Source: Candidatus Fermentibacteraceae bacterium
GTDB taxonomy: Bacteria > Fermentibacterota > Fermentibacteria > Fermentibacterales > JCC-6
Length of the DNA stretch: 61,963 nt
Direction of reading: 5' to 3'
Assembly (NCBI GenBank): GCA_016936235.1
Contig: JAFGPK010000108.1
Coordinates: forward strand, 1-61,963
Shown here: piece by piece, positions 47,221-54,305 of the stretch
How the letters are laid out: each line of letters begins with the position of its first letter
Numbering within the stretch: the first letter of the stretch is position 1
Made by a program: the position numbers and the translations under genes
The notes under the pieces: generated by a model
Told to the model about the DNA's origin: nothing
Database searches by the model: none
Seen by the model: the letters and a program-made list of their open reading frames with translations, nothing else

Positions 47221-48507
47221 ATGGCCGGAGATAACTTCAATCCCTTCCGGATGGCCCAGGAACAGTTCGACAAGGTTGCAGATTTCCTGGATCTGGACGA
47301 GGGAGCAAGGGGTTTGTTGAGAAATCCCATGAGGGAGTACCATTTCAACATACCCATCCGTATGGATGACGGTTCGGTGAAAGTCTTCAGAGGTTTCAGG
47401 TGTCAGCACAACGATGCCAGAGGTCCCAGCAAGGGTGGCATCAGGTTCCACCCGCAGGAGACCATCGATACCGTCCGAGCCCTCTCCATGTGGATGACCT
47501 GGAAGTGCTCCGTTGTAGACATTCCGCTTGGCGGCGGCAAGGGAGGGGTCATCTGCGACCCCCACAATCTTTCCATGAGAGAGCAGGAGCAGATATGCAG
47601 GGGATGGGTACGCCAGCTGGTCCGTAATGTGGGCCCCCTGCAGGATGTTCCCGCTCCCGATGTCATGACCAGCGCCCAGCACATGCTCTGGATGATGGAC
47701 GAGTACGAGGCCATAACGGGTGCCAAGTACCCCGGCTTCATCACCGGCAAACCCGTAGGAATGGGTGGAAGTCTGGGCAGGACCGAGGCAACCGGTTTCG
47801 GACTTATCTTCACTGTGAGGGAAGCTCTGAAACAGCTCGATATAAGGCCCCAGGACACCATCGCGAGCGTGCAGGGATTCGGCAACGTATCACAGTACGC
47901 GATCCGGCTCTACAACCAGATGGGTGGGACTGTGATATGCGTATCCTGCTGGGACCAGGCGGACCAGAAGAGCTACGCATTCCGACGCAAGGACGGGATC
48001 GATCTTGATCAGCTCCTTTCAATAACCGACAAGTTTGGCGGCATCGACAGGCAGAAAGCCCTGGACCTCGGCTACGAGATACTGGAGGGTCCTCAGTGGA
48101 TAGAGCAGGATGTGGACATCCTCCTGCCCTGCGCCCTGGAGAACCAGATCAACGCCGACAGCGTAAAAAAGATCAGCAGCAGAGTGAAGATAATCGGCGA
48201 GGGCGCCAACGGCCCCACAACTCCCGAGGCGGACAGGGTGATCGAGGAGATGGGTATCTTCAATATCCCCGATTTCCTTGCCAATGCCGGAGGAGTTACC
48301 TGCTCCTACTTCGAGCAGGTCCAGTGCAACATGAACTACTACTGGACCAAGGATGAGGTCCTCGGGAAGCTTGACCAGAAGATGACCGAGGCGTTCATTG
48401 CGGTCAGCGAACTTGCTCAGAGGCACGGCATCTACATGCGCGACGCCGCCTACGTTATCAGCGTCGGGAGGGTCGTGGAGGCCTGCAGGGCCAGGGGCTG
48501 GATCTAG
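47221..48507 (+). CDS. gdhA: Glutamate dehydrogenase
   Basis: 428 residues. It interconverts glutamate and 2-oxoglutarate plus ammonia with NAD(P). GGIRFHPQET, MTWKCSVVDIPLGGGKGGV with the substrate and catalytic Lys residues, DVPAPDVMTS with the catalytic Asp and the Rossmann turn GFGNV (219-223) are present. The end has the usual QIN...GEGANGPTTPEAD segment. Cofactor choice cannot be called. GAGAGGAGT precedes the ATG and a clean terminator follows. Confidence 0.95.
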   Translation: MAGDNFNPFRMAQEQFDKVADFLDLDEGARGLLRNPMREYHFNIPIRMDDGSVKVFRGFRCQHNDARGPSKGGIRFHPQETIDTVRALSMWMTWKCSVVDIPLGGGKGGVICDPHNLSMREQEQICRGWVRQLVRNVGPLQDVPAPDVMTSAQHMLWMMDEYEAITGAKYPGFITGKPVGMGGSLGRTEATGFGLIFTVREALKQLDIRPQDTIASVQGFGNVSQYAIRLYNQMGGTVICVSCWDQADQKSYAFRRKDGIDLDQLLSITDKFGGIDRQKALDLGYEILEGPQWIEQDVDILLPCALENQINADSVKKISSRVKIIGEGANGPTTPEADRVIEEMGIFNIPDFLANAGGVTCSYFEQVQCNMNYYWTKDEVLGKLDQKMTEAFIAVSELAQRHGIYMRDAAYVISVGRVVEACRARGWI

Positions 48508-48578: not shown

Positions 48579-49439
48579 ATGAAGAACTGTTTTTTCTGCT
48601 CTGATCTGCACGGAAGCGAGCGAAAGTACTCGGAGCTTTTCCGGGCCATCGGTGAGGAAGCTCCACGTGCTGTGTTCATCGGTGGCGACCTCCTCCCGGG
48701 GGCGGTAGCCATGCTTGCCTCCACCACGTCTCAGCTGGATTTCATCCGGGAGGTGCTTGCCGCCGGCTTGCTCCGTCTCAAGGATGCCATGGACGACTCC
48801 TATCCGGAAGTGTTCATAATTCTGGGGAATGACGACGGAAGGTTTGAGGAGACGGTCATGCTGGAGTGGGAATCAAAGGGCCTGTGGCACTACGCACACA
48901 ACCGGGTGTTCAAGATGGACTCCTTTCAGGTTTATGGCTATTCCTTCGTCCCGCCAACCCCCTTCAGGCTGAAGGACTGGGAGAAGTACGATGTCTCCAG
49001 GTTCGTCGACCCCGGGTGTGTACATCCCGAAGACGGGATCCACACCGTTCCCGTATCCGATAACGAGCTGCGCTACTCCACCATCCGGGATGACCTGACG
49101 GAACTCACGGCCCGAAGCGATCTTTCCCGCGCCATCATGCTGTTCCACTCGCCGCCCTACGAAACCTGTCTCGACAGGGCGGCACTGGACGGTGTCAAGG
49201 TGGACCATGCCCCGGTGGACCTTCATGTGGGGAGTATCGCCATAGCAAGGCTGATAAGGACACGTCAGCCTCATATTACCCTGCACGGGCATGTTCACGA
49301 ATCGGCGGAACTGACGGGCAGGTGGATGGATCGGATCGGCAGGACCTTCATGTTCGGAGGGGCTCACAGGGGCCCTGAGCTGGCACTTGTGAAATTCCAC
49401 GCGGATGACCCTGGATCAGCCGTCAGGGTGTTGCTCTAG
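48579..49439 (+). CDS. Metallophosphoesterase
   Basis: 286 residues. Calcineurin-type fold: FFCSDLHGSERK (first metal ligands), FIGGDLLPG, ILGNDDGRF (Asn-Asp/His-like ligand set), MLFHSPPYETC and ITLHGHVHES with the last His ligands. It should hydrolyse phosphoester bonds; the substrate is not known. Converges with the long PPDK_N-type gene: the two stops overlap by 17 nt, so antisense effects on ends are possible. Confidence 0.88.
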   Translation: MKNCFFCSDLHGSERKYSELFRAIGEEAPRAVFIGGDLLPGAVAMLASTTSQLDFIREVLAAGLLRLKDAMDDSYPEVFIILGNDDGRFEETVMLEWESKGLWHYAHNRVFKMDSFQVYGYSFVPPTPFRLKDWEKYDVSRFVDPGCVHPEDGIHTVPVSDNELRYSTIRDDLTELTARSDLSRAIMLFHSPPYETCLDRAALDGVKVDHAPVDLHVGSIAIARLIRTRQPHITLHGHVHESAELTGRWMDRIGRTFMFGGAHRGPELALVKFHADDPGSAVRVLL

Positions 49440-52400
49440 ATGCTCCCCCTCCTCCCATCTGCAGCGGACGGGCGGCGTCGTTCACGGCGCCTATCTTGAC
49501 AGCGTAGGACTGTTTCTCTTCTATGTCCCTGTCGGTGATCACGTGGATATCCAGCATTTTGTCCGTCTTGAGCCCGGTTCTTATGAAATTGAGCTCCACT
49601 AGGCACTTGTCCCAGCCGTCAAGATAGGATTCCAGACGGGCGCGCTGTCCTTCATCCCCCTCGAAATGCACAAGTATATCTATATCGCTTATGGTCCCCG
49701 CCGTGGCGTTCTTCGTGCTTCCGAACAGGTACAGGCCCCTGACCCCGTATTTCGCGGGATCCATACCCCCGGCAAGGGTCTCCACCATCCTCTGCCTCCA
49801 GAGCCAGTGGTCGTCCGAACTGGAGTCCAGTGTTCTGTGACGCTGCGGAAGACGGTCGCGATCGCCCTTGATGACACCTTCCTCCGAAGCGAAGTAGGCT
49901 ACGGCCTCTCCCTCGTCCCCGCTCATGGCTATCCTCAGGATCTTACCGCCGGTGCTGGCCTTCACATCGATGACCCTGACCACATCGGCCAGGGCACCGC
50001 AGTCCGGCAGAAGCCGGCAGAGCACATTCTCGCTCTCCGCGAAGAATTCCTTCCGAAAGACGATGCTCCTGTCGTCGGGATAGAGCGGCAGATACCTGAT
50101 ACCCGCTTCCACCAGGTCCTGGAAGAAATGCGTCCCGAAGGACAGGTCAGGAAGATAGCTGCCTTTCTGGAATGCCATCTCGATCAGTGCCGCCGTGTTG
50201 TTGATGTCCGAGTAGGTCACCTGTACTCCGAGCTTGATGTCACCGCGGCTTCCCCATCTGCCGGGACCCATGAGTATGAAACTGCGCTTCTTGAGGATGC
50301 CGTTGAGCCTTCCCACTATCTTCCCGACCTCCACCAGCTGATCGAGTTCCTTAAGGGAATCGTAATGCTCCGGATCGACGAATACGATATGGGTCACATT
50401 CTGAACGAAACCGTCGGACACGTACCTGTCAGCCGTGAAAAGGACATCCCCCGAGTCGGGCTTCTCCTTGAGGTGGACCTCTTCAGTTTTGGCCCAGGAG
50501 CTCTGCGCCCTGCACTGGAGTATGTATATGTCCCTTCCATCAGCCGCGAACTCGATGTCCACAGGGAAACCGCATCCATGCTCCAGCACTTCCAGCATCC
50601 TGCGCATCGTCTCCAGGAAGTCGCTGCCCGAACCCAGAAGGCCCTCGAAGGTGGGTATTACATACTCCTTCCCGAAATCCGTGAACCTGTTCACCCTGTA
50701 TATCATCCCGTCCCGGTGAGTGGAGAACACCTTCTCCACCTGGGGGTACTGAGCGCCGTACTCCGATACGATATCCTCCACCTTGACGGTCTCTATCCTT
50801 TTCTCCTGCAGATTGATGACGTCCATGAACCTGGGGGCGTACCTGACCGTTTCATCCACGCTGGTGTTCACCCTGAGACCGGGCTGGCCGGGGGCGGCGA
50901 GTACGGGGTAATCGTCACCAAGCCTGTCGACGGCCCTGGTTCCCAGACCAGGTACGAGCCTGAGCAGCCCGTCCTCCCTGCTTATCCTGGAGGACCACCT
51001 GAACTCGTTCCTGCTGAAGGCGACACCGCTGAAGGCCGGCATGTAGTATTTTCCGACCTTGATTCCCACAACCTGCTGGATCAGGATGCCCATCTCCTCC
51101 TGGAAATCAAGAAGGTTCCTCTCCTTGCGGTACTCGATGGCATCGGGACCGAACATCGAGGCGTAGACCTCGGCTATGGCGTCCATGAGGGCTTCCAGTC
51201 GATCGCTCTTGGAGCCCTGGTTGGCAAGGAAAAGGCTCTTGTACTTACCGCTGAACGCTGCCTCGATGCTGTCCTCGAGCAGACTGGAGCTTCTGACTAT
51301 CAGGGGGTACTCACCCATTGAATCCAGAGTGACCGAGAGTCCCCGCTTCATCTCAGGGCTGAAGGCGCAGTTCTTGAAAAGCTGGATCAGGTTGGGGTAT
51401 TCGAGCCTGATCTCCCCCAGGTATCTGTACCTGTACTCCAGCAGCTCCTCCAGCCTGTTGTGGTGGACGAAGTCCAGGATACCGTCACTGCTGATGTACC
51501 AGGTGGCCGGTGTTCTGATACCCGCAAGAACCGGGTCCTCGCTTCCCACATGCGCGAGTATCTTCTCCGCCATGAACAGCCCCGCTCCCTTTCCTCCCAG
51601 CTGACCATGGCTTCTGGTCGGAAGCACCAGGGAATTGGTCAGGCTGTAGAAATCCCCAATGGAGACAAGCTCCTTCAGTCGACTGATGTAGTCCAGCCTC
51701 CTGCTCACCAGCCTCCTTATCAGAGAAACCTTGAGGGCGTTCGTCACAGGTCGCGAAAGGCTGTCCTCGTCGCTCACCACGCCCCTGTGGGTTTCCATGG
51801 CCTGAATGATCTCGGTGAGGGAACTGGCGTGATCGTCAAGCACATTTATAAGGTGCTCTATCCGATTCTCGCCTATCCACCTCTGAAGCAGTCCAAGGAT
51901 CTGTTCGCCGCTCAGTTCCCTTCCGGCTATGGCCAGGATCTCCTGGACCAGCTCGTAGCTTACTTCGAACTGGTGCCTGGGTATGGGCTGGTTGATGCCA
52001 TGGTGATCAAGGTCGGTATCCTTGGCCGTGGTCTGTCCCGCCCACCTGTTCAGGAGGGATGTGGCATCGGGGATACCTATGAAGCTGAGGTAGTTGAGGA
52101 GTCTGCGGGAAAGGGTCTGATACAGCTTCCTGTCCGTAATGAGAAGCATGTCCAGGATCGTTCTCCAGGATTCCGTGCCTCCCTGCCAGTCTGCGAGTTC
52201 AGCCCTGTCTTCCTCGAACATCCGGGACAGGCTGTCATGGAGTATCGTATGCGCTATCCTCCTGGCCAGAGTCCTTATAAGTCTCTTCTCCTCCTCCAGG
52301 AAGGCTCCACCCTTGTCCAGCTCCGGCACCTTTTCCGGGTAGGTGACGGCGATGTTACCCACAATACTGCCGTTTATCACAAGGTTCTCGGAGAGGACCG

Positions 52401-52638
52401 GTCCGCCATCGCGGTAGTCGCCGGACTTGTACTCCCTGCCCATGTAGATGATCCGGGCTTCGCAGTGCTGGGGATTGTACCAGCCCTGGGGCATGGCGTC
52501 GGCGACAGCCTGCAGCTTCTTGCCCAGGGGTTCGTCGGTCATGAGTATCTCGTCGGCCATGTAGAGGCAGTTCAGCTCCTTGGCCCTCTCCCTGAGAGAG
52601 TTAAGCAGCTGATGTGAATCGTGTCCCTTATCATTCAT
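49423..52638 (-). CDS. GAF-PPDK_N-nucleotidyltransferase fusion protein
   Basis: 1071 residues from the ATG at 52638, next to the stop of the upstream paralogue. Order: a GAF-like sensor region (about 15-165: ELNCLYMADEILM...ENLVINGSIVGNIAVTY); a helical linker; the PEP/pyruvate-binding ATP-grasp module (about 340-720) with HGQLGGKGAG and YPLIVRSSSLLEDS; a second shared segment with MGPGRWGSRGDIKLGVQVTYS near 788 and FGTHFFQDLV; and a C-terminal nucleotidyltransferase domain (about 965-1060) with LYLFGSTKNATAGTISDIDILV, keeping GS and DxD. The phospho-His and PEP-barrel parts of PEP synthase are absent, so this cannot be that enzyme. Function is unknown; kinase, adenylyltransferase or signalling use is inference. 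Confidence 0.85.
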   Translation of the reverse strand: MNDKGHDSHQLLNSLRERAKELNCLYMADEILMTDEPLGKKLQAVADAMPQGWYNPQHCEARIIYMGREYKSGDYRDGGPVLSENLVINGSIVGNIAVTYPEKVPELDKGGAFLEEEKRLIRTLARRIAHTILHDSLSRMFEEDRAELADWQGGTESWRTILDMLLITDRKLYQTLSRRLLNYLSFIGIPDATSLLNRWAGQTTAKDTDLDHHGINQPIPRHQFEVSYELVQEILAIAGRELSGEQILGLLQRWIGENRIEHLINVLDDHASSLTEIIQAMETHRGVVSDEDSLSRPVTNALKVSLIRRLVSRRLDYISRLKELVSIGDFYSLTNSLVLPTRSHGQLGGKGAGLFMAEKILAHVGSEDPVLAGIRTPATWYISSDGILDFVHHNRLEELLEYRYRYLGEIRLEYPNLIQLFKNCAFSPEMKRGLSVTLDSMGEYPLIVRSSSLLEDSIEAAFSGKYKSLFLANQGSKSDRLEALMDAIAEVYASMFGPDAIEYRKERNLLDFQEEMGILIQQVVGIKVGKYYMPAFSGVAFSRNEFRWSSRISREDGLLRLVPGLGTRAVDRLGDDYPVLAAPGQPGLRVNTSVDETVRYAPRFMDVINLQEKRIETVKVEDIVSEYGAQYPQVEKVFSTHRDGMIYRVNRFTDFGKEYVIPTFEGLLGSGSDFLETMRRMLEVLEHGCGFPVDIEFAADGRDIYILQCRAQSSWAKTEEVHLKEKPDSGDVLFTADRYVSDGFVQNVTHIVFVDPEHYDSLKELDQLVEVGKIVGRLNGILKKRSFILMGPGRWGSRGDIKLGVQVTYSDINNTAALIEMAFQKGSYLPDLSFGTHFFQDLVEAGIRYLPLYPDDRSIVFRKEFFAESENVLCRLLPDCGALADVVRVIDVKASTGGKILRIAMSGDEGEAVAYFASEEGVIKGDRDRLPQRHRTLDSSSDDHWLWRQRMVETLAGGMDPAKYGVRGLYLFGSTKNATAGTISDIDILVHFEGDEGQRARLESYLDGWDKCLVELNFIRTGLKTDKMLDIHVITDRDIEEKQSYAVKIGAVNDAARPLQMGGGGASRATP

Positions 52639-54305
52639 ATGGTGATCACTCCAAGTCCTCTTCTGCCGTCGATCCTGACGCGCAGCCCCCCGGGCGCCCT
52701 TACGCACCGGACATGATCCGATTCGTGGACCACTTCATCCCATGATTCAATGAGTTCCCATCTCACAGGGCCGTCAAGGGTCTCGCTCACGGACAGGTAG
52801 CTTACGCCGAAGCTGGAAAGGTTGTGAAAGAAATGGGATCCCTGGCTGAGTTCCACCCTCATGTTCGGTCCCGAGATCTCCAGTATCACCCTGGCGCCCG
52901 AGATGTTTCCCCATGTGACCGGGATTCCCAGCCAGGGGTCGGTGCTTCCCCATCGTCCGAATCCGATGAGAAGATAATCAAGCCCCAGCTCCGCCATTTT
53001 CCTGTTCGCAAGGGCTATTTCCGACGCTATGGCCCTTGTCAGGGACGTGCTGAACGCTTCAGGTTTCACGAAGACAACATGGCTAACACCCATCTCACCG
53101 TTGCCAAGGGCTTTCCTGGAAACCGCCAGGGTCCCGGGGCCTTCCAGCTCATCGGCGGATATCTCTACGCTGTCACCGGCCGCCGAGATGGGCCTTACCT
53201 GAAGGAGGCCAAGATCAGGCTCGCCGCCTCTGATCGGACCTTTCATGGCGAACTCCACCTCCACAGGTGAACCTGCGGAGCCGGCGCAGATATCCAGGAC
53301 CTTCCTGACCGTCTCGTTCAGCGGGATGACCCTGTCCTGGAGTATGGGAGCGAAATTCACCACCCTTGGTCCCTCCCTGCCGGTTCCGCTCACCATCATG
53401 TCGGACCCGGGCAGATACGTTGAAGCGACGAACTTAAGCGTATCATCGTAATAAGAGTCACTCAGGGGGCACGAGAGCATGAACTCAGTCTCGCGAATGG
53501 GGTCGAATTCCGTCACCCTCTCCATGTTCACGCACCAGAAGCTGTTCTGGGTGTTCTTCATCATGTCGTTCGACGAGCCGAAAGGCGGTGGCGTGCCCGG
53601 GCTTCTGGGGCTGTAAGACCAGCACAGCCCTCCGTCAACGATTGTCTTGCCCAGTCCCAGTGCCAGATTCACCACACCGTCCTCCGGCCTGGACTTGCCG
53701 AAGGCGTAGAAATTGAATGTCCTGGCCACTCCGGAGACAACGGGGTAGAACCTGTCTCCGTACCTTGCTCCCACGATGTCCTGAAGCACGACGGCCATGG
53801 CCTCATCCTGGAGCTCTGATCCGATCCCCCTGTGGAACTCCCGGGAATCGGAGAAATAAGTGCTTGCCCAGACCAGCTTTACCGCTTCCATCAGCTTCCG
53901 GAACCGTATTTCGTCCGAGGGCTGGTTATTGGGTATCATCTTCGTCTGGTAGATGCCTGCCAGCGGTGTTCTGAGATCATCCTCCAGCAGGCTGGAAGAT
54001 CTGACGGCTATCGGTTCACGGGCACCACGGACGAACTTCCAGAGATCCCCCGAGAGCATCGGAGAGACCTCTCCCCCCATGAACGCCATGGCTATGCGGT
54101 CATCGGGCTCGCAAGTGGAGGCGTAGCGGTCCAGGTCGTTCCTCTTCACGAAGTCCCTGAAGAATTCGGTCCCTATGACGGAGAAACGCGGGACTGATAC
54201 CTTCATCGGGAAAGTCCCCCCCGGATCCGTGTCCCTGAGAGCATCCACGATGCTGAACAGCCCCGAAGCCTTGCCCCCGACTCCGCCTCCACCGTAGATC
54301 TCCAT
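52635..54305 (-). CDS. PEP/pyruvate-binding (PPDK_N) domain protein, short paralogue
   Basis: 556 residues from ATG 54305 (GGAGG at 54316-54320); GTG at 54308 is possible. The ATP-grasp blocks are GGGGVGGKASGLF (near 6-18) and PIAVRSSSLLEDDLRTPLAGIYQT. The C-terminal segment has LIGFGRWGSTDPWLGIPVTWG and QGSHFFHNL, which match the long neighbour block for block. So both proteins share one core, while the long one adds GAF and nucleotidyltransferase parts. Its stop overlaps the neighbour's ATG by 4 nt: tight coupling. No catalytic His or PEP domain is seen. Confidence 0.85.
   Translation of the reverse strand: MEIYGGGGVGGKASGLFSIVDALRDTDPGGTFPMKVSVPRFSVIGTEFFRDFVKRNDLDRYASTCEPDDRIAMAFMGGEVSPMLSGDLWKFVRGAREPIAVRSSSLLEDDLRTPLAGIYQTKMIPNNQPSDEIRFRKLMEAVKLVWASTYFSDSREFHRGIGSELQDEAMAVVLQDIVGARYGDRFYPVVSGVARTFNFYAFGKSRPEDGVVNLALGLGKTIVDGGLCWSYSPRSPGTPPPFGSSNDMMKNTQNSFWCVNMERVTEFDPIRETEFMLSCPLSDSYYDDTLKFVASTYLPGSDMMVSGTGREGPRVVNFAPILQDRVIPLNETVRKVLDICAGSAGSPVEVEFAMKGPIRGGEPDLGLLQVRPISAAGDSVEISADELEGPGTLAVSRKALGNGEMGVSHVVFVKPEAFSTSLTRAIASEIALANRKMAELGLDYLLIGFGRWGSTDPWLGIPVTWGNISGARVILEISGPNMRVELSQGSHFFHNLSSFGVSYLSVSETLDGPVRWELIESWDEVVHESDHVRCVRAPGGLRVRIDGRRGLGVITI

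Follow-up and report, generated by a model that had tools for sequence, protein, structure and literature searches.

The 61,963-nucleotide stretch analysed here (the window; contig JAFGPK010000108.1 of a Candidatus Fermentibacteraceae bacterium) carries two overlapping minus-strand genes, SHORT and LONG, encoding paralogous PPDK_N-type ATP-grasp proteins, and beside them genes for a glutamate dehydrogenase (GDH) and a calcineurin-like metallophosphoesterase (MPE). Across phyla, LONG is steadily linked to a GDH like that of the window, and genomes with the LONG core almost always encode one GDH subclass. We propose that the two ATP-grasp proteins serve the adjacent GDH as a dedicated control module driven by ATP, a reading to which we give a probability of about 0.45. 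An initial annotation had described the overlapping pair, its common core, and the GAF-like N-terminus and C-terminal nucleotidyltransferase of LONG, all of which we confirm. Its idea that the module uses ATP to regulate or modify, with the GAF fold as sensor, remains the best reading, although it missed the glutamate dehydrogenase, the constant partner of LONG.

Linkage of LONG to glutamate dehydrogenase

LONG-type loci were gathered in two sets. The first comprises 32 loci found when genome contigs were scanned with LONG as the only query, and spans Fermentibacteria, Aminicenantes, Acidobacteria, Zixibacteria, Syntrophomonas-type Firmicutes, Planctomycetes, Riflebacteria and proteobacterial metagenome-assembled genomes. 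The second comprises 19 loci in genomes of other orders than the window's, with zero DNA match to the first set at 95% identity. A window-type GDH stands beside LONG in 29 of the 32 first-set loci; the exceptions are L008, a short contig with no GDH in up to 1.9 kb upstream of SHORT and up to 3 kb downstream of LONG, and L025 and L037, where the contig is cut in or at LONG. GDH accompanies LONG in 14 of the 19 second-set loci, the others being cut by contig ends (L204, L206, L215 and L218) or, in L219, a true miss. Overall GDH is present in 43/51 LONG loci, at 59–91% identity to that of the window in 37 and at 47–52% in six. As a control, GDH was found in none of 30 PEP-utiliser loci, which are short (median 3.2 kb), and chance linkage is estimated at ∼0.004–0.01 per locus, supposing two GDH genes per genome. 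Among the gene clusters listed, the core spans 41 loci, GDH 34 and MPE 14, and every other cluster at most 8.

The arrangement of the genes varies. The commonest form, in 20/51 loci, has LONG directly after GDH, SHORT being absent from the stretch fetched. Some phyla show the order GDH-SHORT-LONG with MPE convergent to LONG, and in Fermentibacteria SHORT and LONG converge on MPE, behind which GDH lies in the same orientation as MPE; the genes nevertheless remain together. In L213 GDH and LONG are separated by another member of the family. Since SHORT occurs in 20 of the 51 LONG loci, MPE in 18 of those, and the nucleotidyltransferase in 35/51 (judged by match range), the constant part of the system is the ATP-grasp and GRWGS core together with GDH, and the GAF fold, nucleotidyltransferase, SHORT and MPE are layers upon it. 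The initial annotation suggested a two-protein system, whose paralogues should stay linked in related genomes; our genome survey bears this out only in part, as the loci with GDH and LONG alone show that the system is not generally of two proteins, and we reject the SHORT-LONG pair as a general requirement. In a Zixibacteria contig (L027, 11472–14261) a second LONG copy without the nucleotidyltransferase adjoins a complete GDH-SHORT-LONG-MPE cluster.

We also surveyed 242 genomes for co-occurrence, almost all of them with a completeness of 90% or higher, calling the LONG core from 229 bits upwards and the GDH subclass from about 60% identity upwards. Of these genomes, 64 have the GRWGS domain, 35 reach LONG-type scores and 34 have the GDH subclass; both core and subclass are present in 32, the core only in three, the subclass only in two, and neither in 205. 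When the window's genus-to-order group (24 genomes) is left out, the corresponding counts are 12, 3, 1 and 202. The three core-only genomes do have a GDH, at 50–53%. A laxer cut on the core adds three genomes with divergent LONG-type loci, whose GDHs are at ∼48–54% identity, and gives 32, 6, 2 and 202, or 12, 6, 1 and 199 outside the window's group. Fisher p-values on these tables ignore relatedness. The two genomes with the GDH subclass and no detectable LONG core, G044 (L282) and G186 (L263), are natural contrasts for the effect of LONG on GDH; nothing was found near the GDH of G044. In a smaller set of 20 genomes, with GDH type assigned by score, 12 have both, one (67% complete) has LONG alone, and seven have neither, including G005 and G011, which are fairly complete and of the same genus. 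Over 38 loci, pairwise distances between LONG cores correlate with those between the GDHs (r 0.83), a correlation that may reflect common descent.

Nine positions are specific to the subclass when 33 LONG-linked GDHs, one of them that of the window, are set against 19 GDHs whose genomes gave no family match: R30, C126, M149, G180, A280, W293, V322, C361 and N370. The residues at C126, M149, W293, C361 and N370 occur rarely or never in the 19. None of the nine is an obvious acceptor, and a hallmark modification site on GDH was rejected.

Two other PPDK_N-GRWGS classes were sampled. An NADP-type GDH lies in the fetched stretch of 10/18 loci of one class in other genomes, and of 2/11 loci of a more divergent class at 30–35% to LONG (L227, L228, L232, L238, L241, L245–L247 and L249–L251), so both are less tightly linked to GDH than is LONG. 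The first class is typified by a SHORT-like protein of 999 aa in the window's own genome (L069, 7784–10783) with receiver-like and DUF5752 N-terminal parts, the second receiver-like part keeping the phospho-Asp motif as judged by eye. Its gene is convergent with an NADP-type GDH and adjoins genes resembling NfnAB-type oxidoreductase subunits.

Domain composition and catalytic residues

The layout of the locus is given in Table 1. SHORT precedes LONG, and the SHORT stop and LONG start share 4 nt (ATGA); the 3′ ends of MPE and LONG overlap by 17 nt, and GDH sits just before MPE. The closest named relatives are from Candidatus Aegiribacteria and Fermentibacteria genomes, the best LONG among them being at 81%. 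SHORT aligns with the LONG core at 29% identity (E 3e-32).

Table 1. Genes of the locus and parts of LONG; nucleotide positions are those of the window.
Feature	Position	Strand	Description
GDH, glutamate dehydrogenase, ELFV type	47221..48507	+	428 aa; conserved partner of LONG
MPE, calcineurin-like metallophosphoesterase	48579..49439	+	286 aa; convergent with LONG
LONG	49423..52638	-	1071 aa; multidomain PPDK_N ATP-grasp protein
SHORT	52635..54305	-	556 aa; only PPDK_N ATP-grasp (9-380) and GRWGS/GSHFF domain
LONG, GAF-fold domain		-	residues about 10-146
LONG, helical region		-	residues about 157-334
LONG, PPDK_N ATP-grasp		-	residues 346-725
LONG, GRWGS/GTHFF swivel-like domain	49834..50493	-	residues ∼730-917; stretch folded alone, 716-935
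LONG, nucleotidyltransferase domain, MNT-type	49459..49833	-	residues about 945-1060; stretch given, 936-1060

Pfam recognises the ATP-grasp domain as PF01326 (PPDK_N) at E 3.7e-53 in LONG and 1.1e-29 in SHORT, and PPDK_N was found in 28/28 LONG-type proteins. K350 of LONG is kept in all 26 aligned rows that reach that position, and R449, E696, Q708 and R710 in 28/28; the ATP-grasp is of the RPH type. The GRWGS domain of LONG, when predicted alone, gave a model (pLDDT 86.6, pTM 0.86) whose best structural matches, though weak, are phospho-His swivel domains. R794, D800, E820 and H837 are invariant across 37/37 aligned LONG and SHORT domains, and H491 in the GSHFF motif of SHORT is kept in 15/15. 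Alignment of the domain to 28 phospho-His domains by hhalign was negative, and PF00391 was unmatched in LONG and SHORT at E 1 and in the 28 LONG-type proteins at E 0.1. The absence of a phospho-His domain, as initially annotated, therefore holds by sequence but is qualified by the model, as the GRWGS domain weakly resembles these swivels and sits after the ATP-grasp as in phosphoenolpyruvate (PEP) synthase.

We give almost no credence to the idea that LONG and SHORT are variants of PEP synthase or PPDK acting in central carbon metabolism. They share the PPDK_N domain, and PEP synthase profiles of NCBIfam are listed, but all far under their cut-offs. Pfam gave zero matches to the PEP/pyruvate barrel family in LONG, SHORT or the 28 LONG-type proteins; LONG ends instead in a nucleotidyltransferase, and SHORT stops after the GRWGS domain. 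The window's genome moreover encodes a separate PPDK elsewhere, with its own phospho-His motif GGMTSHAA. The view that these are not PEP synthase or PPDK is thus upheld, a domain search having found neither the His nor the PEP-barrel domain by sequence.

In the nucleotidyltransferase of LONG, G973, S974, D985, D987 and D1030 are kept in 22/22 aligned proteins with the domain. The domain has the GS, DxD and third Asp of the MNT type, D1030 being the residue that we take to be the third Asp. A Foldseek search with this part returned the HEPN-MNT structure 8xeh (E 0.03) and the MNT antitoxin 8xeo (E 0.09), both with probability 1.00, and the NCBIfam MntA profile scores LONG at 20.9 bits, under its cut-off of 60. 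The N-terminal domain of LONG has a GAF fold. This part of the LONG profile (∼5–160) also matches a PAS histidine kinase of 664 aa (L071, 4140–6134) and a TPR-PAS-GGDEF protein of 1065 aa (L070, 6823–10020) of the same genome, and these matches support a sensor role.

MPE matches PF00149 (E 1.9e-9). Its metal ligands D9, H11, D37, N84 and H190 are present in 12/12 aligned sequences, that of the window included, and H236 and H238 in 11/12, the remaining one having masked bases there. The phosphoesterase had been thought possibly to lie beside LONG by chance, which is not borne out: at 18 of the 20 SHORT-bearing loci MPE is on the opposite strand and convergent with LONG, in L205 at a distance of ∼7 kb. 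It is missing from L008 and L204, and the sole MPE without SHORT is at L030, where the SHORT side falls off the contig.

A defence or toxin-antitoxin module, in which MNT nucleotidyltransferase, phosphoesterase and ATP-grasp protein make up a conflict system, is very improbable and was set aside. The nucleotidyltransferase part is structurally nearest to MNT antitoxins, and PADLOC gave matches to the candidate families PDC-S09 for the nucleotidyltransferase (E 3.7e-7) and PDC-S10 for MPE (E 1.2e-6); these are weak and partial, however, spanning only ∼40–60 residues of generic domains, and a gene group that keeps to GDH from phylum to phylum, with correlated distances, does not resemble a defence island.

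Proposed control of glutamate dehydrogenase and its alternatives

In this proposal the common core of LONG and SHORT is a dikinase-like phosphotransferase. The PPDK_N ATP-grasp would split ATP, and the phosphoryl group would pass, on the model of PEP synthase and rifampin phosphotransferase, to the invariant H837 of LONG or H491 of SHORT in the GRWGS domain. Pfam recognised no acceptor-substrate domain in SHORT or LONG (the helical part of LONG was not searched separately), which suggests transfer of the phosphate in trans, with GDH as the simplest recipient, or its use in driving a conformational or assembly change of GDH. The GAF-fold domain may gate phosphotransfer through a small ligand, the nucleotidyltransferase may attach AMP or UMP as a second modification, in the manner of GlnE or GlnD, and MPE could undo one of the two modifications. 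GlnE and GlnD are nucleotidyltransferases of nitrogen control.

A different possibility is a metabolic role, in which the two proteins would phosphorylate a small compound close to GDH in metabolism, or ligate it, the candidates being glutamate, 2-oxoglutarate, ammonia or an amide derived from them. The PPDK_N profiles with names among those listed (PEP synthase, PPDK, rifamycin phosphotransferase and prodigiosin ligases) are all of small-molecule enzymes, and linkage to GDH suits a pathway as well as it does regulation. HpeHI likewise acts on a small molecule with ATP-grasp and swivel on separate chains (PMC12167813). We nevertheless consider this alternative unlikely: SHORT has PPDK_N and no recognised acceptor-substrate domain, the GAF fold, nucleotidyltransferase and receiver-like fusions suggest regulation, and beyond the core, GDH and MPE no listed gene cluster spans more than the 8 loci noted above. 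Less likely again is that LONG and SHORT bind GDH and activate or assemble it by ATP binding or hydrolysis, with no covalent modification. The close co-occurrence with one GDH subclass fits such a role, but the role leaves the conserved catalytic residues of the nucleotidyltransferase and the phosphoesterase unexplained.

The covalent control of GDH proposed here can be taken further, to a categorically new form of enzyme control in which a dikinase-derived protein phosphotransferase with GAF input passes phosphate from ATP through a swivel His to an enzyme. Together with the nucleotidyltransferase and phosphoesterase it would reversibly set GDH activity in many phyla, as a counterpart of the covalent circuit of glutamine synthetase and PII. 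The odds are against so broad a reading, and we advance it tentatively.

GDH stands at the crossing of carbon and nitrogen metabolism. If the proposal is true, standard annotation conceals a form of control over bacterial GDH, as LONG and SHORT match only the generic PPDK_N and sub-threshold PEP-synthase-type profiles; dikinase chemistry could then extend from small molecules to the control of proteins. A widespread family, its core present in 35/242 sampled genomes and in 15/218 outside the window's order-level group, also gains a concrete and testable function. No paper on the LONG family or on a GDH-linked PPDK_N protein was found in titles and the starts of abstracts, among the matches listed for broad queries, in a collection outside which most subscription journals fall. 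Trans-acting genes downstream of B. thetaiotaomicron gdhA reportedly affect GDH activity, according to the title of a 1996 paper by Baggio and Morrison, which is cited in PMC4539542.

Relation to known systems

LONG and SHORT resemble PEP synthase and PPDK in having PPDK_N with its ATP-site residues and in the order of ATP-grasp and swivel-like domain, and the whole model aligns to 12–467 of the N. meningitidis PEP synthase (2ols) over 355 residues, at a root-mean-square deviation of 4.0. They differ in lacking the PEP barrel and the PF00391 signature. The nucleotidyltransferase of LONG has the intact GS...DxD...D motif of MNT-type enzymes such as the MntA antitoxin but is fused to an ATP-grasp protein. 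The likeness to GlnE and GlnD is one of role only, a nucleotidyltransferase that would target an enzyme of nitrogen assimilation or the regulator of such an enzyme; the architecture of LONG is different, and homology is considered at the level of the nucleotidyltransferase superfamily only.

The closest parallels in chemistry are the dikinases RPH and HpeHI. Phosphorylation of a swivel-domain His by ATP is established dikinase chemistry for RPH (PMC4844700) and HpeHI (PMC12167813), and the ATP-grasp of LONG and SHORT is of the RPH type. Unlike these enzymes, LONG and SHORT have no recognised acceptor domain of the rifampin-binding kind and a swivel that is unrecognisable by sequence, and the LONG system adds a GAF fold, a nucleotidyltransferase and MPE, and is linked to GDH.
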